Positions 1 to 17,730 of a stretch of 19,263 bases of DNA are shown here, one piece after another. Below the pieces are notes generated by a model that saw nothing but the letters and a program-made list of their open reading frames with translations, searched no databases and was not told the origin of the DNA. Positions within the stretch are counted from its first letter, which is position 1, and each line of letters starts with the position of its first letter. The position numbers were made by a program, and so were the translations under genes. Source of the stretch: Anaerolineaceae bacterium (GTDB taxonomy: Bacteria; Chloroflexota; Anaerolineae; Anaerolineales; Anaerolineaceae); contig PMIV01000099.1 of the NCBI GenBank assembly GCA_003158355.1, forward strand, positions 1 to 19,263. Reading direction: 5' to 3'.

Positions 1-1782
1 CGCAATCTGGAATTGACCGAAACCATCCGGCGCGGAGAGGCCCAGGGTTCACTTCTTTCCATTTTGGATCAGACCGTCACTCCCATGGGACATCGGCTCA
101 TCCGCCAATGGGTAAGCAAACCCTTACTGGATATTGCGGCAATCAATGCCCGCCAGGATATTGTCGCTTATTTTCTCAAAGAAGGATTGACTCGTACTGA
201 ACTACGAGCTGCCCTTAATAAGATCACTGACCTGGAACGGATCATCAATCGCATCAGCGCCGGCATTGCCGCCCCGCGCGATTTGGTGGCGCTGCGCAAT
301 AATTTGGAGAGGCTGCCCGATCTGAAAAGCCTGCTCAAGGCCGAAGAACCGGTTCTGACCACATTGCGCGCTGAATTTGCCCTTTGCCCGGAAGTGTTGG
401 ACCTGGTCACCCGGGCCATTGCCGAAGACCCTCCCGCTACGCTGCAGAACACCGGCGTGATTCGGGCTGGCTATTCTGCCGAACTGGATAATATCATTGA
501 GATGTCGCGCAATGCCCGCGAATGGATCTCGAATCTTGAAAATGTCGAACGCGAACGCACCGGTATTAAAACGCTCAAAGTGGGTTACAACCGGGTTTTT
601 GGCTATTACATCGAAATCACCCACAGTAACACAAGCCAAGCTCCAGAAAACTATATCCGCAAACAAACTCTGGTGAATGCCGAACGCTACATCACCCCGG
701 AGATGAAAGAATATGAATCCCTGGTATTGAACGCAGAAGAACGCATCCACGAAGTTGAAAGCCGGTTATTCAAAGAACTTTGTCGGGAAATTTCGCAATC
801 AACGGCAGAGATATTACAAACCGCCCGCACGATCGGTGAGTTGGATGTTTACCTCTCTTTTGCAGAAGTTGCTGCTCTGGCAGGATATACCCGTCCGGAA
901 CTCGTTGAAGAACCGATTCTGGAGATTCATGACGGCCGTCACCCGGTGGTGGAAACCACTCTGCACGGAGAGCGTTTTGTGCCCAACGACACCATTTTTG
1001 AGCCTGGCGAGAGTGTGCGCATCATTACCGGGCCGAATATGAGCGGTAAATCCACTTTTCTGCGCCAGGTGGCTCTGATCGTCTTGATGGCGCAGATCGG
1101 CAGCTTTGTTCCCGCGGCAAGATCGCGGATCGGGCTTGTGGATCGTATCTTTACCCGCATCGGCGCACAGGATGAGATCCACGCCGGGCAGTCGACCTTT
1201 ATGGTCGAGATGATCGAAACAGCCAACATCCTCAACCACGCCACTCCCCGTTCTTTGCTCATTCTGGACGAAATCGGCCGCGGCACGTCCACCTATGACG
1301 GCCTCTCCATCGCCTGGGCAGTGGTCGAATACATTCACAACCACCCCAACCTCAAAGCCAGAACGCTGTTTGCCACCCATTTTCACGAGCTTACCCAATT
1401 GAGTGATCTCTTGCCGGGCGTACGCAACTACAACGTGGCGGTAACAGAATCCAACAATCAGGTGGTCTTCTTACATCACATCATTCCGGGCGGAGCAGAC
1501 CGTTCCTACGGTATTCACGTTGCTCAGCTTGCCGGGATTCCCCGGCCGGTGATCTTACGTGCCTCAGAAATTTTGCAGCAGCTCGAAGCTACCTCAGGCA
1601 CAACGGTTCAGGTCAACCCGGCTTCCTCCCAACAATTGGTTCTCTTCCCCGAGACCAATCCCCTGTTGGATGAATTGAAAAAACTGGATCTGAACACCCT
1701 GCCTCCGATCCAAGCGATCAATCTGCTCTATGAATGGCAAAAAAAATTCCTGGCCAATCCTGACCAGGAATCAAAGAAATAA
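1..1782 (+). CDS. mutS: DNA mismatch repair ATPase MutS, C-terminal part (5' end outside window)
   Basis: MutS recognises mismatches and, with MutL, starts mismatch repair in the cytoplasm. The frame is open from base 1 (RNLELTETIRRGEAQGSLL), the start of the core/lever domain III. The mismatch-binding and connector domains (about 270 residues) therefore lie upstream of the window, and the TTG at 13 is not the true start. The clamp region follows (NVERERTGIKTLKVGYNRVFGYYIE, split around bases 540-620). The ATPase has Walker A GPNMSGKST at 1030-1056, Walker B LLILDEIGRGTSTYDG near 1257-1300 and the ATHFHELTQL switch near 1372-1401. The dimerisation element follows, and the protein ends with the short C-terminal tail EWQKKFLANPDQESKK. 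It is convergent with the next gene, only 6 bp away, and its last codons double as a terminator for the opposite strand. Family assignment is very secure; MutS1 is preferred over MutS2 because no Smr domain is present. Confidence 0.97.
   Translation, partial: RNLELTETIRRGEAQGSLLSILDQTVTPMGHRLIRQWVSKPLLDIAAINARQDIVAYFLKEGLTRTELRAALNKITDLERIINRISAGIAAPRDLVALRNNLERLPDLKSLLKAEEPVLTTLRAEFALCPEVLDLVTRAIAEDPPATLQNTGVIRAGYSAELDNIIEMSRNAREWISNLENVERERTGIKTLKVGYNRVFGYYIEITHSNTSQAPENYIRKQTLVNAERYITPEMKEYESLVLNAEERIHEVESRLFKELCREISQSTAEILQTARTIGELDVYLSFAEVAALAGYTRPELVEEPILEIHDGRHPVVETTLHGERFVPNDTIFEPGESVRIITGPNMSGKSTFLRQVALIVLMAQIGSFVPAARSRIGLVDRIFTRIGAQDEIHAGQSTFMVEMIETANILNHATPRSLLILDEIGRGTSTYDGLSIAWAVVEYIHNHPNLKARTLFATHFHELTQLSDLLPGVRNYNVAVTESNNQVVFLHHIIPGGADRSYGIHVAQLAGIPRPVILRASEILQQLEATSGTTVQVNPASSQQLVLFPETNPLLDELKKLDLNTLPPIQAINLLYEWQKKFLANPDQESKK
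1739..1770 (-). terminator. Intrinsic terminator of the fmt-panE-amylase operon, inside mutS coding sequence
   Basis: Read on the minus strand, TTCCTGG, a 10-nt loop and CCAGGAA (7-bp perfect stem, 1770-1747) are followed directly by eight T residues (1746-1739). It begins 19 bp beyond the TAA of the minus-strand membrane-protein gene. On the plus strand the same bases encode the end of MutS (the T tract is the complement of CAA AAA AAA), and no U tract follows the hairpin in that direction. Termination is therefore expected for leftward transcripts only. Confidence 0.75.
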
Positions 1783-1788
1783 CTCAAC

Positions 1789-2841
1789 TTATTTTTTTAA
1801 TCCAACAGAAACGATCTGCAGCAGCAAGCCCACTGCGCAAACAATGCCGCCTATCCAACACCCCACCCAGACAATTTGATTAAGAAATACCAGGCCTTCG
1901 ATACTCACCAGAGAATTGAGCGCGGTAGCCGGTTGATTTTGAGCCCAACTGGTTAGATAGCTTTGTCCAAACCCTTTTGCAAACAAATAGACCAGAACGC
2001 AAATCCCGCCCGCCAGGAACATGGGAATTCCAAAAGAAGAAAACATTGATCTTAAGGAACGTAGATTTAGGAGAAATAAAAGGATAGCAAAGAAAAGAGC
2101 TGCCCAGGGAACATTGAGCAATAATTTTCGGATCGTGAAATACGTTTTATACATCTGGGAATTTGTGATCTCAGTATTTTCTGCTGTCTGAGCATCTATC
2201 AGGGTAATTGAAGCAGGCAGTGCTTGATAATATTTCTGCAAATACGAATTAAGGATAGGGGTGACTAATGAGAGGTACGGCTCAGTAGGTTTACAAATAG
2301 GGGCCTGTGAAAGATCGATGGTCGTTTGCTGCAGCATCCACTGTGAAAACAGCCGGATTTGCTCCACATTGCATTCGGGCAACGCCGCTATTACCTGATT
2401 TAAAACAACTGTACCTGCCTGACCCTGCAAATTTTCTTTAATGGGAGTGAGGTCAATTCGGATTTTTAAGTCATAGGTCTTTAAATTTACAAATTTGAAC
2501 AACGAGTCAAGAATTTGTTCAGTCTGGTTTTGAAGATAATTCTGCGGTAGAACCACAAGATAGAGATCAGTAACCTGTTGCAGAGACATTACATTAAAGA
2601 GCTTTTTGGGAGCAGATTGCGCATTTGTATCGGGGAGTGTAGTTTCTGCTAGAATCGCAGGTACCTGGTCATAAACCCGTTGTTGCACCAGCAGATTTTT
2701 AAAGAATTCTTCTGAGAACAAAGTCCTGTTCAAGGAAATTGAGAACAGAGTTAGGGTGAGTGTCAAAGTGAAAAATATGGCGATTAAAAACACCCAACCT
2801 TTAGCGACTGACGAACTTGTTGATTGTTTTTTCGGATCCAT
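1789..2841 (-). CDS. Conserved membrane protein of unknown function, four predicted TM segments
   Basis: I do not recognise a named family. The 350 residues show one N-terminal TM segment (about 16-37), a large polar region of about 200 residues (38-239), and three C-terminal TM segments (about 240-260, 272-291 and 318-345). Basic residues at both termini and in the short RSLRS loop (261-265) predict both ends inside and the large domain outside. That domain holds two cysteines, C157 (in ALPEC) and C183 (in APIC), which could form a disulfide. The ATG at 2841 follows the GH13 stop by 12 bp with a weak AGGGA ribosome site, so it is probably the last gene of the fmt operon. Function cannot be inferred; a role in the cell envelope is only a guess from topology. 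Confidence 0.85.
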   Translation of the reverse strand: MDPKKQSTSSSVAKGWVFLIAIFFTLTLTLTLFSISLNRTLFSEEFFKNLLVQQRVYDQVPAILAETTLPDTNAQSAPKKLFNVMSLQQVTDLYLVVLPQNYLQNQTEQILDSLFKFVNLKTYDLKIRIDLTPIKENLQGQAGTVVLNQVIAALPECNVEQIRLFSQWMLQQTTIDLSQAPICKPTEPYLSLVTPILNSYLQKYYQALPASITLIDAQTAENTEITNSQMYKTYFTIRKLLLNVPWAALFFAILLFLLNLRSLRSMFSSFGIPMFLAGGICVLVYLFAKGFGQSYLTSWAQNQPATALNSLVSIEGLVFLNQIVWVGCWIGGIVCAVGLLLQIVSVGLKK

Positions 2842-2853
2842 GGTCCCTATTCC

Positions 2854-4257
2854 TTATTCTTCAGGTGAAAGAAGCATCCCGGACCAACGGTTGAGATCAA
2901 TGGAAAGTATTCCTCCATGCAGGTCTTCAAATACTTCGTTCCCCAACAAGTTGCGCAAACGGTGTACTCCAGCCGGCAAATAGGTTGATAGATCAAGCAG
3001 TGCTTTTGCGCTTTGCCCGGACGCGTTCCCGATCACGATCACCTGGTTGGTGCCATCTTTCCGGGAAAAGGCAAAAATATTGTCGTTGGAAACAGGAATT
3101 ACTTCAAAAGTTCCGCGTCGTAAAGCGTTGTTTTCATTCCTTAACCGAATCATGCGTTTGACCCACTGTAATAACTCAATATTCCAATCGGGTTCATTCC
3201 AGGAAAAAGCACGGCGGTTATCCGGGTCAGGCCCGCCTTCCATACCTGTTTCATCTCCATAATAAACAGCGGGAGCTCCCGGAAAGGAAAAAAGTATCAA
3301 GAATCCCAAGCGCAGCTTTTCAACGTTTTTGTTGAGCAGGGTAAATATTCTTTCGGTATCATGAGAACCCAGCGAGTTATACATTGCATAGGCATTTTCT
3401 AGTGGGTAATGTTCGACCCAGGATTGCATTTCTTTAATAAAGATTCCGGCGTTTTTCTTTTCTGTCAATAAATCCAGGATCAAGGTGCGAATGGGGTAAT
3501 TCATCAATCCATCAAAATGGGTATCACGCACCCAACGACGATCGCCGTCCCAAATTTCTCCCAGTAAATAGGCCTCCGGGTTTGTTTGTTTCACAGTTTG
3601 GCGGAACTCGGTCCAGAAACCGTCATCGTTGATCTCATTGGGTACATCCAGCCGCCATCCGTCAATCCCCTGTTCCAGCCAGTAGCGTGCCACCCGGTAA
3701 ATATACTCACGCACCCTGGGATTATCTGTATTAAATTTAGGCAGGCTTTTATACTTCCACCATCCCAAATAAGTTGTTGCGTCCCCCGGAGAGTAGGCGT
3801 CTACCGGAAATTTTTTTACATGAAACCAATCTGCATAAGGTGAATTGCTTTGATTCTCTAAAATATCGTTGAAAGCAAAAAAGCCGCGGCCGCAGTGATT
3901 GAATACCCCGTCCAAGACTACACGCACCTGGTTGCGATGAGCGACATCCAGCAGACTCTTGAACACCTGCAAATTTCCCAGCTTTGGATCAATCTGAAAA
4001 TAATCGGTCGTATTGTAGCGGTGGTTCGAAGCGGAAAGAAAAATCGGGTTCAAATAAATGGCGTTGATGCCCAGATCGAGCAGGTAATAAAAACGGTCGA
4101 TCACTCCGCGCAAATCTCCGCCGTGGAAGGAGTAGATGGTCGGTTTTGAGCTCCACTCCACCATGTTGGCAGGATCGTTGGTCAGGTCTCCGTTGTAAAA
4201 TCGATCCGGGAAAATCTGATAAAAAATACTGTCTTTCACCCAGACCGGTACGCTCAT
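2854..4257 (-). CDS. GH13 alpha-amylase-family glycosidase (neopullulanase/cyclomaltodextrinase-like, no N-domain)
   Basis: A hydrolase acting on alpha-glucosidic bonds in maltodextrin, pullulan or cyclodextrin-type substrates. All four GH13 signatures are present: DGVFNH (116-121), GWRLDV with nucleophile D204, LLGEIW with acid/base E234, and SLGSHD with D300 stabilising the transition state. The WWKYKSLPKFNTDNP segment (166-180) is typical of the neopullulanase/maltogenic-amylase subgroup. The protein has 467 residues against about 580 for those enzymes: the catalytic barrel starts at residue 5 (VWVKDSIFYQIFPDRF), so the usual N-terminal CBM34 dimerisation domain is missing. No signal peptide is visible, so it probably acts in the cytoplasm on imported oligosaccharides. 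Its ATG overlaps the upstream reductase stop (ATGA, 4 bp), implying translational coupling. The exact substrate cannot be read from sequence. Confidence 0.93.
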   Translation of the reverse strand: MSVPVWVKDSIFYQIFPDRFYNGDLTNDPANMVEWSSKPTIYSFHGGDLRGVIDRFYYLLDLGINAIYLNPIFLSASNHRYNTTDYFQIDPKLGNLQVFKSLLDVAHRNQVRVVLDGVFNHCGRGFFAFNDILENQSNSPYADWFHVKKFPVDAYSPGDATTYLGWWKYKSLPKFNTDNPRVREYIYRVARYWLEQGIDGWRLDVPNEINDDGFWTEFRQTVKQTNPEAYLLGEIWDGDRRWVRDTHFDGLMNYPIRTLILDLLTEKKNAGIFIKEMQSWVEHYPLENAYAMYNSLGSHDTERIFTLLNKNVEKLRLGFLILFSFPGAPAVYYGDETGMEGGPDPDNRRAFSWNEPDWNIELLQWVKRMIRLRNENNALRRGTFEVIPVSNDNIFAFSRKDGTNQVIVIGNASGQSAKALLDLSTYLPAGVHRLRNLLGNEVFEDLHGGILSIDLNRWSGMLLSPEE

Positions 4258-5315
4258 TTAGAGTCTCGAATACTGGCAAGTAATTTTTCGGGGTGATTGG
4301 CGTATTCCTGTTTATCCAGGCGGCCAGCGGCCAGACCTTCCAGCGTCTCGGTTAAGACCCGATTGACCGGGGTATTAATTCCCAAATTCTCTCCTGCCCG
4401 AACGACTGCTCCGTTCAAGAAAGTGACTTCTGAACGAGTTTGTCCGGAATAGAGGTCGATGTGAAAAGAAGGCATTTTGGCGCCGCGTCCTTTGCCGAGT
4501 GCCAGGTAGCTGATCGGGCGGCTAATAGTCGAAGGGAATTCGGTCATCAGCCAAATTAAAGGATGAATGGGGGTTCCCGGCAGATTGACCACATGAATAT
4601 TGAGGCGTTGCATTACTGCCAGCGTCTCGCGAATCTGCTGAACTTCAACCTGATAGATTTGCGGATCAGAAAATATCTGCGCCGGTGTCCAATTTAAAAT
4701 AGCCGAAGTGGCATTCCCGAGCAAGTTCGAAAGCATTTTGGACCATTTCAAATCTGCTCTTCTTGGATATCCGCTGGCATTCAAACCTGCCAGTTTGAAG
4801 GCTTTTATTAATGTCAACGCAAACGGAGTGGTCGCTTCAATACCGATCCCGCGCATTTTTTCAACGGTAATCTTTCCCACTCCATTCTTGCTAATGGCAG
4901 TGGCAATGGAGGCTCCCAGAACGCGTTCCTTGCCCAATACAGTCTCAAAGGCAGCTTCATTTTCGACGCCATTTTGCAGACATAAAAGGGTTGGAAAAGT
5001 TTCCTTCCATTCGCGAATCCCCTCAACGACGCTGTTCGTATCAAAGGATTTGACTGCCACTAAAGCGGCGTCATAAGCATCACTTTGCATGGCCTCGGAC
5101 AACGACGCATAAACCGTCACACCCTTAATTGAATGCGAGCCGCCAGGGAGATTTAACGTCAACCCGCTGGATTTGGCTCTGGAGACTGATTCAGGCCGTT
5201 CAATAAACGAGACTTTGTTCCCGGCTAACGCCAGGCTGCCGCCAATATAAGAACCAATGGCGCCCATACCAAAACATAAAAAACGCAGTGGTTTTTGGGT
5301 TGAGAACTCAGCCAC
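4254..5315 (-). CDS. panE: 2-dehydropantoate 2-reductase (ApbA/PanE family)
   Basis: Predicted NADPH-dependent reduction of ketopantoate to pantoate in pantothenate/CoA synthesis. The N-terminal Rossmann fold has GMGAIG (16-21). The QNGVENE element (114-120) sits where the family keeps its conserved Asn, and a Lys in WSKMLSNLLGN (K193) matches the catalytic lysine region. The C-terminal helical domain carries RSEVTFLNG and NTPVN, as in PanE. At 353 residues it is somewhat longer than the usual 290-310. The start is GTG at 5315, supported by GGAGG at 5325-5321, 5 nt away; it overlaps the fmt stop by 8 bp. The family also contains 2-ketoacid reductases of other specificity, so the exact substrate is probable rather than certain. 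No other pantothenate gene is in the window. Confidence 0.85.
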   Translation of the reverse strand: MAEFSTQKPLRFLCFGMGAIGSYIGGSLALAGNKVSFIERPESVSRAKSSGLTLNLPGGSHSIKGVTVYASLSEAMQSDAYDAALVAVKSFDTNSVVEGIREWKETFPTLLCLQNGVENEAAFETVLGKERVLGASIATAISKNGVGKITVEKMRGIGIEATTPFALTLIKAFKLAGLNASGYPRRADLKWSKMLSNLLGNATSAILNWTPAQIFSDPQIYQVEVQQIRETLAVMQRLNIHVVNLPGTPIHPLIWLMTEFPSTISRPISYLALGKGRGAKMPSFHIDLYSGQTRSEVTFLNGAVVRAGENLGINTPVNRVLTETLEGLAAGRLDKQEYANHPEKLLASIRDSK

Positions 5316-7795: not shown

Positions 7796-10222
7796 TCATT
7801 TTACTGCTATTGCAGCTTTGACTGCGGCGTAGGCATTTAAGATACCAAAACCTGAAGCATCATTGGGTACATTGCCAGAGGTTACACAGGCAGGCAATTT
7901 ACCTTGATAAGGGTCGGCTGTTTCTTCGAGGATCTTCTTGGTCAGGGCAATGTTACCAATCAACTTGGGATTTGCTGACCACATCAAAGCCACCACTCCG
8001 CTCACATGCGGCGCTGAAAAAGAAGTACCGTCCGCTTGAATATAGGCATTGTTCGGAAAAGAGGATACGACCCCCTCTCCGGGTGCGAGCAGATCAGGTT
8101 TGACCCGATTACTGCCATCGACCGTGACCGGACCCAAACTGCTGAATGTAGACAGCTCACCCGCCTCATTGATCGAACCCGCGGTAAATACATCACTGTA
8201 AATGGCCGGCGGATCGGTAACCGTGCTGCAGCCATAGTCACCGGAATTCCCGGCAGCTACCGACATAAAGATGCCCGCTGTTTCCAGATCATCCACAGCG
8301 GATTTATATATCTTTGCATCACAGCCTTCCACTTCTGGGCAACCCCAGGAATTATTGACGATCATCGCGCCTTTTGCCGGTATACCATCGGTGAAAGAAT
8401 TCCCTTTTTCTGGATAAGGAGCCAGCATAAACTGCATGCAATTTAAATAAACTGCCGTGTTCCCCAAATCTCTGGCCAGGTTCACGCAGCCGATCCACTG
8501 AGCATCCGGTGCGATGCCAATATTTTTACCCGTGATCAACCCCAGGGTCGCAGTTCCATGTCCTTCCGCATCGGTCGGGAAATTACTTTGGTTCCAAGGA
8601 TCCAGCCAATTGTAGTCATTTCCTTCATTTACCCCCCGGTAAGAAGATTTTAATTCAGGATGCAAACCGTCTACACCCGTATCGGTCTGACCGATGAGAA
8701 TGCCTTTACCGGTAATTCCCAACTCTTGCCGCACTTTATCAACACCGATCATTTTCAGGTTCCAGGATGGTTCACTGGGTTGATCTACCGGCCCGCTGTT
8801 CGTTAGCGGAATTTTTTTTTGTAATGGCCGCAAATGAGGGCTGGGTAAAATTCGATCCACATCACTGCGCTTCTGCAGCAGCATTGAATACAAAGGCCCG
8901 GCATCGACTTCAATTCCGTTCACCAGGTAATACGCGGTATAGCTCACATGCCATTGATCCAACTGTTTGCGAATCTCGGTTTGGGAATCATCGGCAGTTT
9001 TAACCAGATTATCGTAAACCGCCTGCCGCCGGGTGCTCAGGTCAGTTATTTGGTTTATCGCCGTCAAATCAGTTTGATTCTTCATGACCACGAAGATCTT
9101 GTCCCCATAAAAACCCGGCCGTCCAAATAACAAATACATCGCCCCGACCGCAGCCAGAGAGAGAATTCCTAAAATGATATTCGTTCTTCTGGATAGATGG
9201 AATCGATCATGAAACCGGAAAAATATTGCGAAAAGGATCACAACGAATAAGATGATTCCCAAGGTCGTATACGCCGCACGCGTCGCCCATTCTACGGTTT
9301 CACCGGGGGTTCCGTTGATCGCTAACGAGAGTTCATCCGCATCGAACCAGAGTAAGGGAAGGGCAAGCGCGCATCCGCTGATCAAACCCACACTGAATTT
9401 AGCCTTATCTACACTCTTGCGCCCGATCATGGCGAGTCCGACGATCAGCCAGGCACTGATCGGTAAGACGATGATCAATACCAGTTGAGAACCATTTTGT
9501 CCCAGGCCTGTTAATAAAATTAACAAAAATAGCGCAACAACAAAACCATCCAGAATAAAATCGCCCACCTTTAGTTCACGCTGCGGCGCTTGCGTTTTAC
9601 TGAATAAATAGGGGTATAAAACCTGAATCACAAAAAATGCAAAAACGATTCCCAGGAACAGATACAAAATGGTGTCTGATATGGAACCCAACGCTCCCCA
9701 TAAAACCCAGGGAATCGAAAGAGCCGCGGTAAGCAAGAATGCCATTCCCAGTGTTCCGGAGCTGGCACCCTGATTCTCCAGCGGTTTCCTTTTTCTCAGG
9801 TTGATCACAAATAACAAAATTGCAACAAATACCAGTACCAGAATTTGGTAAGCTGTGGTTTTTTGTTGGTCAGTGATGAACAACAATTTAATCGGATCCA
9901 ACAAAACGGCTAAACTGGCAGCCATGACCCAGATGCGAAATATATTTTTCAAACGCGGTGTTTTGACTACAAAATAGACGATCAAGAGAGAAATCAACAA
10001 AAGCAGCGCGCAAATTCCATGAACGATCCAACGAACATTCGGGATCGTGGTGGCACTCTCATAAATACTTTGTTCCAAAGACCAATTGGCCAATAAGTCG
10101 ATTGCCGAGACGATGATCACCCAAAACGAGAAAATGATAAACAACGCGATCGGGCCACAACCCCGAATTTTCTGATCATCTTCAGGAAAATCGTTATTTA
10201 CTTTTTCCATTATTTGTTCCAT
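7796..10222 (-). CDS. Subtilisin-like (S8) serine protease with an N-terminal 11-TM membrane domain
   Basis: Residues 1-370 hold about 11 TM segments (near 24-45, 65-86, 95-116, 124-142, 158-179, 181-207, 221-242, 247-267, 278-295, 317-338 and 348-368). The basic loops (KTPRLK, RKRK, SKTQAPQR, GRKSVDKAK, HDRFHLSRR) all fall on one side, predicting N-in and catalytic part outside. Residues 374-467 resemble an inhibitor-I9 propeptide (DKIFVVMKNQTDL to VDRILP). The S8 domain follows, close in style to bacillopeptidase F: D514 (TDTGVD), H555 (GHGT), oxyanion N659 (AAGNSG) and S734 (GTSFSAPHV). All catalytic residues are intact. ATG 10222 has AAGGA 7 nt upstream. Normal secreted subtilases have a signal peptide, not a polytopic domain. 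The membrane part matches nothing I can name. It probably heads a unit with the ECF sigma gene. Confidence 0.92.
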   Translation of the reverse strand: MEQIMEKVNNDFPEDDQKIRGCGPIALFIIFSFWVIIVSAIDLLANWSLEQSIYESATTIPNVRWIVHGICALLLLISLLIVYFVVKTPRLKNIFRIWVMAASLAVLLDPIKLLFITDQQKTTAYQILVLVFVAILLFVINLRKRKPLENQGASSGTLGMAFLLTAALSIPWVLWGALGSISDTILYLFLGIVFAFFVIQVLYPYLFSKTQAPQRELKVGDFILDGFVVALFLLILLTGLGQNGSQLVLIIVLPISAWLIVGLAMIGRKSVDKAKFSVGLISGCALALPLLWFDADELSLAINGTPGETVEWATRAAYTTLGIILFVVILFAIFFRFHDRFHLSRRTNIILGILSLAAVGAMYLLFGRPGFYGDKIFVVMKNQTDLTAINQITDLSTRRQAVYDNLVKTADDSQTEIRKQLDQWHVSYTAYYLVNGIEVDAGPLYSMLLQKRSDVDRILPSPHLRPLQKKIPLTNSGPVDQPSEPSWNLKMIGVDKVRQELGITGKGILIGQTDTGVDGLHPELKSSYRGVNEGNDYNWLDPWNQSNFPTDAEGHGTATLGLITGKNIGIAPDAQWIGCVNLARDLGNTAVYLNCMQFMLAPYPEKGNSFTDGIPAKGAMIVNNSWGCPEVEGCDAKIYKSAVDDLETAGIFMSVAAGNSGDYGCSTVTDPPAIYSDVFTAGSINEAGELSTFSSLGPVTVDGSNRVKPDLLAPGEGVVSSFPNNAYIQADGTSFSAPHVSGVVALMWSANPKLIGNIALTKKILEETADPYQGKLPACVTSGNVPNDASGFGILNAYAAVKAAIAVK

Positions 10223-11478: not shown

Positions 11479-11516
11479 ATTTATTTGGTAAATTTTAACT
11501 TTAGGAGAAACCAGTT

Positions 11517-14500
11517 ATGAATGACCTTCTCTTTCACGGTGACCTTTCGGCAGTTGATCCAGAAATATTCAAATTGATCGATCATGAAGCGGAACGTCAG
11601 GCTCGCAAATTGATCCTCATTCCCTCCGAATCGACCGCTCCCGAATCAGTCCGAGAATCACTGGCGTCTCCGTTCCAAAACCTGTATGCAGAGGGATATC
11701 CGGATGAAGAAATGCGCCAGATGTCTGAATCGGAAATCCTGGATTATCCCGCGCGCTTGGCTAATTATCGACGCAATGCTGACCCCCGATACTACAAGGG
11801 AGTTGAGTATGCGGATGTTGTAGAGTCTTTAGCCCGCCGGCGTTGCGCTGAGGTATTTGCAACCGATAAAATTTCACCCGAGCAAATTTTCGTCAACGTG
11901 CAAGCTCTCTCGGGTGCTCCAGCCAATAATGCGGTTTACAGCGCTTTGATCGAGCCAGGGGATACTATTTTGGGCATGAATTTACTTCACGGTGGCCATC
12001 TTAGCCACGGTTCATCCGTCAACCGCTCCGGGAAACTCTATAAAGTTTTCCATTACAATGTCGATCCCCAAACTGAGAAAATCGATTACGACCAGGTGGA
12101 AGCCATAGCAAAAGAATGCCATCCTAAAGTGATCATCTGTGGTTTTTCTTCCTATCCCTGGGTGCCAGATTTTGCACGGTTCCGCGCCATTGCCGATAGT
12201 GTCGGTGCATACCTCCTGGCAGATGTCTCCCATATTGCCGGTATGATCGCTGCCAAAGTATTGCCCTCTCCGGTCGGTTACGCTCATATCATCACCTTTA
12301 CCACGCATAAGACAATGTGCGGCCCGCGTGGAGCCATTATCCTGACCACGGATTCAGCCCTGGCCAAAAAGATCGATAAAGGCGTTTTTCCAGGCGAACA
12401 AGGCGGCCCGCATGTGCATGTCATGGCTGCATTGGCAACGACCTTTCGTCTGGCTAAATCAGATCAATTCAAAGAACTTCAACTACAGATCATCAAGAAC
12501 GCCAAAGCGCTTTGCGATCAACTTATCAAACGCGGTCTACGAATTCCATTCGGTGGAACCAACACTCACCTTTTAAATGTCGATTGTAAAACGATCATCG
12601 GACCTGATGGGACTACTCTTTCCGGCGATATCGCAGCACGAATTTTGGATGTTGCCGGAATTGTTTTAAACCGCAATACTATTCCGGGGGATAAAACCGC
12701 TTTGTATGCATCGGGAATTCGTTTCGGTTCCCCCTGGATGACCCAGCGCGGACTGAAAGAAAAAGAAATGGTCCAGGTAGCTGATATGATCGCCGATATT
12801 TTGTTGGCAACCACCCCTTATACCGTGGAGACACGCAAAGGTCCTGCTAGCCGCGCCAAAGTCGATTTCAAAGTTCTGCAGGATGTACGCTTAAAAGTAC
12901 GCCAACTTACCGACCAGGCTGGTCATGATGTGATCACCGAGCATTCTGGCTATCCATTTTTCTATTACATTGATGACAAGCCCCTTGCTAAAACCGATTG
13001 GGTGGCTTTGGATATTCGCGGCGATCACCTGAATCACTTTATTACGTATACTTTCAGTTCTGCTGCTAATGAACTCAAAAAAGGCGCATCCCAACCAACT
13101 GTTATCCACACCCCAGAACGCGATGTGAACGGCATTCTCACCCTGGTGAATAGTGAGTTATTTCGATTTTCAATTAAAAAAGAAGATTTCGGTCTGGCGG
13201 CCACTTATTTGCGCGACCTTTCCGACGGGTATATCGCCTTTGATAATGACCTGCTGCGTCGTATTCCCGGCCCAATTGTCGTCGAAGAATCCACTGCTGC
13301 AGCGGTCACTCATGCAGATGGGAACACGCTCGATGCGGAAAAACCCTATTTCATCGGGGAAACCCTCGCTTTCGGAAAGGCACTGCCTGAATTTATCTGG
13401 CAAGAAAAAGAAAGCAGTGAACTGTTCCATACCCCTTTGTATGAGACCCACAAAGCCATGGGAGCCAAAATGGTTCCCTTTGCAGGATGGGAAATGCCAG
13501 TATGGTATTCTTCCGTTGTAGAAGAACACCTGGCCACCCGAGAAGCTGCTGGCCTATTTGATGTTTCACATATGGGTGTTTTTCAGGCCGAAGGTCCCGA
13601 GGCTTCTCTATTCCTGGATAGTGTTTGTGGTAACGATATTGGCGGATTGGCAGTGGGTGAATCTTGTTATACCCACTTCTTGGATCCTGACGCGAACGTC
13701 ATCGATGACACTCTGATCTATCACCGCGGTGTCGAAAAATATCTGGTGGTCGTAAACGCCTCAAACGATGCCAAAGATTGGGCCTGGCTCAATGCCGTAT
13801 TGGATGGCAAGGTGATGATTGACCGGGAACAGCCATCGGTAAAAGCAAATGGTCGAAAGGCAACCTTTCGCAACCTGCGCGACCCCAAAGCCGGCCAGGA
13901 CATGCGCGTGGATATTGCCCTGCAAGGGCCAAAATCACGTGATATCTTGCTTACGCTTGGCTGTGACGCTGCCACTACAAAAAAGATCAAAGCTCTAAAA
14001 CGGACTGAACTATGCGATGCTGTGGTGGGGAATTTTGACCTCGTCGTCTCACGCACCGGCTATACCGGCGAGAAGATGGCTTTTGAGCTCTTTGTCCACC
14101 CCGGCAAAGCGGTTGAACTCTGGAATGCCTTAATAAAAGTTGGCGAACCGCTTGGACTCAGACCTTGCGGGCTGGGAGCCAGAGATTCTTTACGAACAGA
14201 AGGCGGTTTGCCTCTATACGGTCACGAAATGGGTGGAGAGATGAATCTTGGCGTAGCGGACGCTGGATTCGGCTCTTATGTAAAAGTGTATAAACCCTGG
14301 TTCATCGGCCGCAGCGCGTATCTAAAACATGAAGCGAATCGTACTGCTGAGGTGATCCGGTTCCGGTTCAATGAAAAGGGGGTTCGTATGGCTCATAATG
14401 CGGACCCGGTGCTGGATGCCAAAGGAAAAGTAATTGGTGTGGTTACCAGTTGTGCAATTGACAAAGAGGGTTATCTGACCGGTCTGGCCTATCTGGATAA

Positions 14501-14645
14501 AAAATCCACTGCTGAGGGCACACCGATCAGTGTCTTCCAAAGTGCTCCAAAACAAGCGGGGAAAGCGCCTGTCGATTTAGTTGATGGTGACCGTGTAAAT
14601 TTGCCTACCCCTGCAACAGTTTTACCCCGGTTTCCTAAACTTTGA
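11517..14645 (+). CDS. Fused serine hydroxymethyltransferase / aminomethyltransferase (GlyA-GcvT)
   Basis: One 1042-residue frame joins two folate enzymes of glycine/serine metabolism. Residues 1-435 are SHMT (serine + THF to glycine + methylene-THF): E59 in AEGYP, D236 and H239 (LADVSHIAG), PLP lysine K265 (TTHKTMCGPRG) and R402 (SGIRFGSP). About 27 residues (63-89) are inserted between AEGYP and RYYKGVEY relative to E. coli GlyA. Residues 636-1042 are a complete GcvT (glycine-cleavage T protein): PFAGWEMPVWYSS (654-666), FDVSHMG (681-687), VIDD with the expected catalytic Asp (728-731), LVVVNASN (743-750), and the C-terminal barrel with KPWFIGRSAYL. The middle (about 440-635) is neither; residues 495-575 look like a decayed GcvT/YgfZ-like half. 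The ATG has AGGAG 9 nt upstream. gcvH and gcvP are not in the window. Both catalytic sets look intact. Confidence 0.95.
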   Translation: MNDLLFHGDLSAVDPEIFKLIDHEAERQARKLILIPSESTAPESVRESLASPFQNLYAEGYPDEEMRQMSESEILDYPARLANYRRNADPRYYKGVEYADVVESLARRRCAEVFATDKISPEQIFVNVQALSGAPANNAVYSALIEPGDTILGMNLLHGGHLSHGSSVNRSGKLYKVFHYNVDPQTEKIDYDQVEAIAKECHPKVIICGFSSYPWVPDFARFRAIADSVGAYLLADVSHIAGMIAAKVLPSPVGYAHIITFTTHKTMCGPRGAIILTTDSALAKKIDKGVFPGEQGGPHVHVMAALATTFRLAKSDQFKELQLQIIKNAKALCDQLIKRGLRIPFGGTNTHLLNVDCKTIIGPDGTTLSGDIAARILDVAGIVLNRNTIPGDKTALYASGIRFGSPWMTQRGLKEKEMVQVADMIADILLATTPYTVETRKGPASRAKVDFKVLQDVRLKVRQLTDQAGHDVITEHSGYPFFYYIDDKPLAKTDWVALDIRGDHLNHFITYTFSSAANELKKGASQPTVIHTPERDVNGILTLVNSELFRFSIKKEDFGLAATYLRDLSDGYIAFDNDLLRRIPGPIVVEESTAAAVTHADGNTLDAEKPYFIGETLAFGKALPEFIWQEKESSELFHTPLYETHKAMGAKMVPFAGWEMPVWYSSVVEEHLATREAAGLFDVSHMGVFQAEGPEASLFLDSVCGNDIGGLAVGESCYTHFLDPDANVIDDTLIYHRGVEKYLVVVNASNDAKDWAWLNAVLDGKVMIDREQPSVKANGRKATFRNLRDPKAGQDMRVDIALQGPKSRDILLTLGCDAATTKKIKALKRTELCDAVVGNFDLVVSRTGYTGEKMAFELFVHPGKAVELWNALIKVGEPLGLRPCGLGARDSLRTEGGLPLYGHEMGGEMNLGVADAGFGSYVKVYKPWFIGRSAYLKHEANRTAEVIRFRFNEKGVRMAHNADPVLDAKGKVIGVVTSCAIDKEGYLTGLAYLDKKSTAEGTPISVFQSAPKQAGKAPVDLVDGDRVNLPTPATVLPRFPKL

Positions 14646-16002: not shown

Positions 16003-17730
16003 TTAACTAGATTCCCAAAGTTTAAACCCTGAAAGAATTGAACCACCGACAAACTCACGCAAGAGTGAGTTATCCGGAATGATGTCTATATTGATTGGCA
16101 GGAACCATTCCAGCATGGTCAAGAGACGTTTTGCCTCAACATATTCAATCGTTCCAAAAGGAACCTGGCGCAACAGCGGTTCAACTACCGATTTCAATGA
16201 AGAGAGTTCATATACCAATGCTGAGTTGAACAATTTATCAGCGTTTTCCTGATAAGGGAAAATATATTCTTTTTCACCGCTGGTAACTGAATCCCAACGT
16301 TGAATTGTTTGCTGTGCCGAGTATCCGCGCTCACGAGCATCTCTCACGATACGCCGCAGCAGACGGGTATCGGTAGTAGAAATCCGATTATAACGGTCCA
16401 GGTTTAACTGGGTTAAACAAGAAGCATAAATTTTAAATGTCGAGGAAGTGGGAACCTCGGGCAACAGGCGCGGATCCAGACCGTGGATCCCCTCCAAAAT
16501 GATTAAATGATCTGTGGTGAGTTTTACGATCTCACCCGATTCTTGCTGTCCGGTTTTAAAATTGTATTTGGGTAATTGAACTTCCTCCCCGGCGATGAGA
16601 CACTGCAAATCATGAGCCAATTTATGATTGTCCATCGCTTCAAGAGCTTCGTAGTTGTAATTGCCTCTGGCATCTCTAGGAGTATTTTCACGGTTTACAA
16701 AATAATTATCCATTTCCATCGGATACGGTGAAAAACCCTGCGCTAAAAGTTGAATTGCCAACCTCTTTGAAAAAGTCGTCTTCCCGGAGGAAGAAGGACC
16801 AGCGATCAAGATAATTCTCGCCGACTCAGATCGATCAGCAATATGTTGCGCGATCTCTGCAATTTGCAACTCGTGCAAGGCTTCAGATATGAGAATCACT
16901 TCCCGCATATTTCCAGACACAATGGCATCATTCAACGCACCCACTGAATCGATTCCCAATCGCTTGAGCCAATTGCCGTATTGCCGAAAAGTGCTCAACA
17001 ATTTTGGATAACTTGTCGTGGGCAGCACTTGCTTGGGTGAGTTTCTGCGCGGAAAGTTCAACACAAAACCATCCCCTACAATACTTAACCCAAACCATTT
17101 CAAAAAACCCGTTGAAGGCAGCATATATCCGTGGTGATAATCGCGATGTTCCCCCAGTTGATAAAGCACCAGATATTCTTTTTGGCGGTACTTCAACAAA
17201 CGGACCTTATCCAGAAAACCCTTTTTCTGAAAATAATCAATCGCTTCTTGTAATGGCACATTCTGGCGGGTAAAAGGAAGATCCTGCGCCACTATTTCGC
17301 GCATTCTAGACTCTAAAAGTTTCAGCTCATCCAGGTTTAATGGCTCTCTGCCAATTACTTCACAATAATATCCACCTGCAGAAACCGAATGGTCAAGCGT
17401 CATGGAGGCCTGGGGAAATAATTCTTCAAACGCGGCCTCAAGCACAAAGGTAACCGAACGACGATAAATTCGTGCGCCATCATCATCAGCCATGGTGACC
17501 GGGCGCACCCGAGCGTCCATTTCAATGGAATAAGTTAATTCGCGCAGTTCACCATTAACAATTGCTCCCATAATGGGCGGTTCCTGCCATTCTGGCAGCA
17601 ACTTCATCAGTTCAAGCAATGAGGCATTCCTTGGACCAGTATAGACTCGTCCATCAGGTATGATAATCTCTATAGTATTTCGTGTTGAAGCGATCTTTGA
17701 ATTAATTCCATCCAACCCACTATTTGTCAT
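16003..17730 (-). CDS. TGS + threonyl/alanyl-tRNA synthetase SAD-like + uridine kinase-like P-loop fusion protein
   Basis: A 575-residue cytoplasmic fusion. Residues 19-78 are a TGS domain (IEIIIPDGRVYTGP), as at the N-terminus of ThrRS. Residues about 100-230 resemble the ThrRS second additional domain (DHSVSAGGYYCEV, HRDYHHGYMLPSTG). Residues 303-500 are a uridine kinase/phosphoribulokinase-type P-loop domain: Walker A GPSSSGKT (311-318), DNYF (341-344), LPKYNFKTG (386-394) and ILEGIHGL (411-418). Fusions of this layout occur in Thermotogae, Clostridia and Chloroflexi and are usually annotated as uridine kinase; the true substrate of this group is not established to my knowledge, and there is no synthetase catalytic core. 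ATG 17730 has GAGGT 6 nt upstream. It stands alone, with terminators on both sides. Confidence 0.92.
   Translation of the reverse strand: MTNSGLDGINSKIASTRNTIEIIIPDGRVYTGPRNASLLELMKLLPEWQEPPIMGAIVNGELRELTYSIEMDARVRPVTMADDDGARIYRRSVTFVLEAAFEELFPQASMTLDHSVSAGGYYCEVIGREPLNLDELKLLESRMREIVAQDLPFTRQNVPLQEAIDYFQKKGFLDKVRLLKYRQKEYLVLYQLGEHRDYHHGYMLPSTGFLKWFGLSIVGDGFVLNFPRRNSPKQVLPTTSYPKLLSTFRQYGNWLKRLGIDSVGALNDAIVSGNMREVILISEALHELQIAEIAQHIADRSESARIILIAGPSSSGKTTFSKRLAIQLLAQGFSPYPMEMDNYFVNRENTPRDARGNYNYEALEAMDNHKLAHDLQCLIAGEEVQLPKYNFKTGQQESGEIVKLTTDHLIILEGIHGLDPRLLPEVPTSSTFKIYASCLTQLNLDRYNRISTTDTRLLRRIVRDARERGYSAQQTIQRWDSVTSGEKEYIFPYQENADKLFNSALVYELSSLKSVVEPLLRQVPFGTIEYVEAKRLLTMLEWFLPINIDIIPDNSLLREFVGGSILSGFKLWESS

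Follow-up and report, generated by a model that had tools for sequence, protein, structure and literature searches.

The window (the whole 19,263-nucleotide stretch of Anaerolineaceae DNA that was analyzed) carries a gene of 1042 codons, at positions 11517 to 14645 of the forward strand, with Pfam matches to both SHMT (PF00464) and GCV_T (PF01571) in one frame. The original prediction that SHMT and the glycine-cleavage T-protein, GcvT, are fused in a single polypeptide thus stands as far as these two parts are concerned, but its two-domain description overlooked a middle domain of about 130 residues. As also predicted, the frame is continuous, with no internal stop over its 1042 codons (the opposite strand, when read in one frame, contains numerous stops), and at the GcvT boundary, inspection by eye showed no start codon preceded by a clear ribosome site. 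The features of the gene are as follows:

11517..14645, forward strand: gene for SHMT, a degenerate GcvT copy, and GcvT (1042 codons)
11503..11508, forward strand: AGGAGA ribosome-binding-like motif, 8 nt 5′ of the ATG (by eye)
11517..12926, forward strand: SHMT module (residues 1 to about 470)
11706..11786, forward strand: insertion of about 27 residues in an SHMT loop (residues 64 to 90; from alignment with the Geobacillus stearothermophilus SHMT)
12309..12311, forward strand: K265, the PLP lysine (from the same alignment and from conservation)
12984..13376, forward strand: middle domain, a truncated GcvT-like copy (residues ~490 to 620, boundaries approximate)
13206..13232, forward strand: middle-domain family signature WLRxLSDGY (here YLRDLSDGY, residues 564 to 572)
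13422..14642, forward strand: GcvT (T-protein) module (residues 636 to 1042)
13704..13709, forward strand: D730 and D731, the latter equivalent to D97 of the Escherichia coli T-protein

The N-terminal module passes the SHMT family models (PF00464, 433 bits against a cut-off of 27; NF000586, 443.7 against 335), and its K265 lies opposite the PLP lysine of the G. stearothermophilus enzyme, K226 (numbered from PDB titles). Across an alignment of 88 fused homologues, hand-picked from those fetched, K265 is invariant, as are S37, Y57, E59, Y93, H161, D236, H239, and R402, which we take to be SHMT active-site residues. Two features set the module apart from the SHMT GlyA (EC 2.1.2.1; PF00464, NF000586): the insertion at residues 64 to 90, which falls between the E59 and Y92/Y93 motifs and contains positions that are nearly invariant among the 88 homologues, and the two GcvT-type domains that it bears C-terminally.

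The C-terminal module resembles the T-protein GcvT (EC 2.1.2.10) in being a full-length copy with the catalytic Asp. It passes PF01571 (residues 641 to 910; 243.7 bits, cut-off 25.6) and TIGR00528 (255.5, cut-off 235.85), and scores below the cut-off of NF001567 (287.1 versus 300). The second Asp of its VIDD motif (residues 728 to 731) is D731, which lies opposite the residue that differs between the structures 3a8i and 3a8k, the title of the latter naming ETD97N (the D97N mutant). Like K265, D730 and D731 are invariant in the 88 homologues, in keeping with the earlier view that both active sites look intact. Compared with free-standing and solved GcvTs, additional residues follow its first sub-domain (by eye); it is, moreover, not free-standing, and in a rooted tree it groups with the middle copy. 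When the GcvT part alone was used as the query, many of the 120 matches listed resembled contig-end pieces.

Three other frames of the window, all on the reverse strand, were also inspected. The product of positions 16003 to 17730 (575 aa) has a uridine-kinase-type domain and a weakly threonyl-tRNA-synthetase-like N-terminal part; that of 7796 to 10222 (808 aa) has a subtilase domain at residues 505 to 774, preceded by about 500 residues without a Pfam match; and that of 1789 to 2841 (350 aa) has no Pfam or NCBIfam match up to an E value of 0.001.

The middle domain and the two GcvT copies

The middle region has no Pfam match and, in a plain sequence search, no PDB match up to an E value of 10, such that its nature is revealed only by profiles, by intermediate sequences, and by structure. 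Profiles built over residues 434 to 632 align with the C-terminal GcvT in hhalign (prob 98.3, E = 1.9e-14; an unrelated control gave a prob of 0.8). The domain was folded on its own for comparison with the PDB, because the rows shown for the full-length model were SHMT only, and the PDB matches of the resulting AlphaFold model belong to the GcvT superfamily. An unrelated linker is therefore ruled out by the profile comparison, its control, and the structure matches, and we conclude from the former, from the model, and from fuller copies in relatives that the middle copy has a GcvT fold. In the window's protein, this copy is without most of the GcvT region beyond the first sub-domain, and the catalytic Asp is absent (I540 stands opposite D731, in a column that is alignment dependent). 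Among the structural matches are YgfZ/IBA57 and the N-terminal domain of MnmE, GcvT-fold proteins that have other roles and no T-protein activity; the middle domain is like them a GcvT-fold module without the catalytic Asp and differs in consisting of about one sub-domain, in being tandem-duplicated inside the fusion, and in its attachment to SHMT.

The fuller copies occur in Aerophobetes, archaea, and other Chloroflexota, in which the middle domain is nearly complete. The fetched loci gave 120 middle copies for comparison, 118 of them distinct; 105 of the 120 have at most 270 residues, and 15 have more than 300. An Asp occupies the D731 column in 11 of the 15 long copies (10 of 14 distinct ones, L038 and L072 being the same) and in 7 of the 105 short copies (L047, L062, L063, L064, L065, L069, and L071, the last a truncated long copy). 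An IDD, LDD, or MDD motif is found in long copies including L042, L067, L068, L071, L094, L117, and L038; the copy of L076 (Aerophobetes) has an IDE motif and directly matches solved aminomethyltransferases (1yx2, E = 3e-28), and the archaeal loci L086 and L133 carry a complete fusion whose long middle copy has lost the IDD motif. Short copies retain the WLRxLSDGY region.

In an unrooted tree (13 middle copies, 30 of 79 C-terminal copies plus that of the window, and 18 of 21 standalone GcvTs), the middle copies form one group and the free-standing GcvTs another (100/100 each), and the C-terminal group is weak (81/7). In a tree rooted with three outgroups of the sarcosine-oxidase kind (nine middle copies, 13 C-terminal copies plus the window's, and eight standalone GcvTs), the middle copies are placed as sisters of the C-terminal ones (100/99), which themselves form a group at 98/96. 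The free-standing GcvTs in the trees are all from Chloroflexota, some middle copies are long-branched, and some rows are of odd composition; left out were L096_M, L120_M, and L122_M (truncated C-terminal copies caught as middle copies), L072 (a duplicate of L038), and repeated standalone rows. Following the first sub-domain, the middle and C-terminal copies have additional residues in common that are missing from free-standing GcvTs (by eye). Given their sister relationship, an origin of both copies in one old tandem duplication would fit.

Distribution, integrity, and splits of the fusion

A scan of named species genomes with the middle-domain motif yielded 439 stretches, of which 413 were confirmed and 80 were kept. 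By title, 62 of these 80 loci are from Chloroflexota, and the other 18 are labelled Aerophobetes (seven), Spirochaetes (three), Acetothermia (two), Planctomycetota (two), archaea (two), Bacteroidetes (one), and other (one), which contradicts the proposed restriction of the fusion to Anaerolineae. Both archaeal records (Methanomassiliicoccales, Thermoplasmata) are titled as chromosomes. The C-terminal domain of the Bacteroidetes record (L084) is nested among those of Anaerolineae, and the locus sits on a 9-kb contig, such that mis-binning or recent transfer is likely. Having been picked by the middle motif, the 80-locus set can reveal only fusions with a middle domain; the motif is also present in each of the 43 complete fusions that were collected through their similarity to the protein of the window. 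In a sample of the phylum (301 genomes), the fusion occurs in at least 14 family labels. One genome (G192) has two different copies of the fusion (L030 and L037).

The domain order is conserved. All 80 kept loci read from SHMT into the middle domain without a change of frame, and in each of them the middle domain is matched by the GcvT profile as well; in 74, the frame continues unbroken into GcvT as far as the contig reaches. In three of the remaining loci (L055, L061, and L068), the contig ends at or before GcvT; in L131, the frame enters GcvT and meets a stop after about 34 of its residues; and in L070 and L071, it stops inside the middle copy. Among the 120 best homologues listed, 118 have 1037 to 1065 aa and at least 99% query coverage, the exceptions being P0005 (889 aa, 85%) and P0041 (993 aa, 95%). 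In a sample of the order (61 genomes), 44 carry both SHMT and GCV_T within a single open frame that is no shorter than 970 aa (hand count). Of the other 17, eight (G232, G304, G320, G335, G337, G343, G346, and G350) have SHMT in shorter frames of 161 to 805 aa, several of them at contig ends; G326 has a stop in the frame; G308, G331, and G342, all of family f89, have SHMT only in frames of 397 to 448 aa; and G317, G327, G336, G339, and G348 gave no match. The fusion is intact in single-contig genomes such as G176 and G351, which, with the full-length homologues, rules out an assembly or frameshift artefact.

Homologues are thus not consistently split at the junction, as the alternative to a true fusion had supposed, but splits do occur in one family. 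Family f4 offers natural REARRANGEMENTS: three of its four sampled genomes are split, and one (G283) is fused. In G152, a 612-aa frame with SHMT and the middle domain is directly followed by a 431-aa GcvT frame; in G037 and G262, the two parts lie on different contigs. The f4 loci L031, L032, L033, and L034 are all divided between the middle domain and GcvT, and SHMT retains the middle domain, which suggests that this domain serves SHMT. In L031 and L032, the match to the middle domain stops ahead of the KPYFIG-type tail.

A different arrangement is found in family f89, in which SHMT occupies frames of its own and a GcvT of the fusion type is joined to GcvP (L165, positions 677 to 4864, forward strand, 1395 aa; L166, positions 472 to 4647, reverse strand, 1391 aa). 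In a third tree, made to place this GcvT (five middle copies, 21 C-terminal copies plus the window's, and six standalone GcvTs), it falls inside the clade formed by the C-terminal domains of the SHMT fusions, beside that of the window (96/94), and the linker between GcvP and GcvT has an LPxFxW stretch that by eye resembles the end of the middle domain. On this evidence, a transfer of the T domain from SHMT to GcvP is probable in f89. The link to SHMT is therefore not indispensable, given that GcvT is separate in f4 and is attached to GcvP in f89. A 1432-aa frame of G128 was rejected as a GcvP-GcvT fusion: it has GcvT at its end and, on reading, no recognisable GcvP.

Genome context and partner genes

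In the window's genome and in G176, a single-contig relative rated 99% complete, no SHMT and no GcvT other than the fusion was found; as the window's genome is 84% complete, a free-standing glyA or gcvT may have escaped its assembly. The window's genome encodes gcvH, gcvPA, and gcvPB, in this order, on another contig, as well as FolD and a formate-THF ligase that is spread over two overlapping frames (of 296 and 322 aa; G000:C135:1705-3415), possibly through a frameshift. In the order sample, GDC-P is present in 57 of the 61 genomes, among them each of the 44 whose fused frame is intact (hand cross-tabulation). Additional proteins with a GCV_T domain occur in most other genomes of the order (as many as 19 matches in one genome, mostly in frames of 700 to 900 aa and some in frames of about 400 aa) and may supply a second T-protein there, and a few fused genomes (such as G309 and G332) have a second, weaker SHMT-like gene.

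Genes for gcvH, gcvPA, or gcvPB lie near the fusion at 22 of 130 loci, that is, in the fetched flanks of 21 of the 80 named loci (nine on the same strand and 12 on the opposite strand) and, on the opposite strand, at L037. The gcvH gene is directly behind the fusion in L063, L069, L117, and L122, and gcvH-gcvPA-gcvPB is directly ahead of it in L062; at these five loci, the fusion occupies the position of gcvT.

Proposed function and alternatives

Sequence and structural model together give one frame with three domains, conserved catalytic residues, sister GcvT copies, and partner genes in the genome. The best explanation, and in our judgment a very likely one, is a bifunctional one-carbon enzyme that would combine SHMT and T-protein with a non-catalytic GcvT-like adaptor between them; both activities, either direction of flux, and the role of the adaptor are inferred. 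The N-terminal SHMT would interconvert serine plus THF and glycine plus 5,10-methylene-THF. Together with GcvH and GcvPA/GcvPB, whose genes lie elsewhere in the genome, the C-terminal T-protein would interconvert aminomethyl-lipoyl-GcvH plus THF and 5,10-methylene-THF, ammonia, and reduced GcvH. One chain could thereby couple glycine cleavage (or its reversal) to the formation or breakdown of serine, and a route of synthesis starting from formate would be available through FolD and formate-THF ligase, provided that the ligase is functional. The middle copy of Anaerolineae, having lost the catalytic Asp and much of the fold, would have no catalytic part and serve as an adaptor, probably on the side of SHMT.

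Direct hand-over of methylene-THF between the two sites would be plausible and is attractive because both sites use this folate. The fusion's GcvT matched the dimethylglycine dehydrogenase/oxidase, sarcosine oxidase alpha, and TMAO demethylase types, in which, as here, a GcvT domain is joined to a partner enzyme with which it exchanges one-carbon units; several GcvT-domain fusions of this kind channel intermediates. The present fusion differs from them in that the partner is the PLP-dependent SHMT and that there are two GcvT copies.

A realistic possibility, toward which we nonetheless do not lean, is that the fusion merely ensures co-expression of independent enzymes, with methylene-THF diffusing freely and the middle domain a decaying spacer. 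The middle segment has a mean column identity of only 27% and a length of 195 to 378 residues, as a spacer might, and the splits in f4 point the same way; yet nine of its columns (including L132, L135, S136, D137, and G138 of the WLRxLSDGY region, in segment numbering) are invariant across 64 diverse members, eight of these lie beyond the SHMT tail, and 15 more are nearly invariant, and a mere spacer leaves unexplained why the domain stays on SHMT after the split. That retention would be explained if the fusion were a folate-channelling machine in which the dead T-protein copy is a folate-holding or docking module that coordinates both sites, a reading that we consider rather unlikely.

That the GcvT part has become a folate-sensing or regulatory domain of SHMT and is no longer a T-protein is very improbable: GcvT-fold proteins with other roles do exist (YgfZ/IBA57 and the MnmE N-terminal domain, as noted above), but the catalytic Asp pair is invariant, no GcvT other than that of the fusion was found in G176 or in the window's genome, both of which have gcvP, the fusion sits in the gcv operons of some lineages, and a GcvT of the same type is fused to GcvP in f89. 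Extremely improbable, finally, is an artefact of assembly or frameshift, or two products made by internal initiation or cleavage, given the long single frames of the order sample, single-contig genomes included, and the lack of a visible ribosome site at the GcvT boundary, and even allowing for the few broken loci (L131, L070, and L071) and for cleavage being invisible in sequence.

The bifunctional enzyme that we favor belongs to well-known families on both sides, and its three-part architecture, spread, and decay series appear to be new. We found no description of an SHMT-GcvT fusion in the open-license PMC literature, and in excerpts of a study on Bacillota (PMC10327494), GcvT and GlyA are treated separately. 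The named homologues among those listed are called after one half only, except for P0142, whose name gives both activities.

Methylene-THF is common to SHMT and the glycine cleavage system, which hold a central place in one-carbon metabolism and in carbon assimilation through glycine, and a natural single-chain version would allow a direct test of channelling. The fusion is widespread in uncultured bacteria and is mostly annotated as one of its halves, such that annotation-based pathway calls may miss glyA or gcvT in the genomes that bear it. These lineages also show a duplicated domain at graded stages of decay, and a T domain in different settings: on SHMT, free, and on GcvP.
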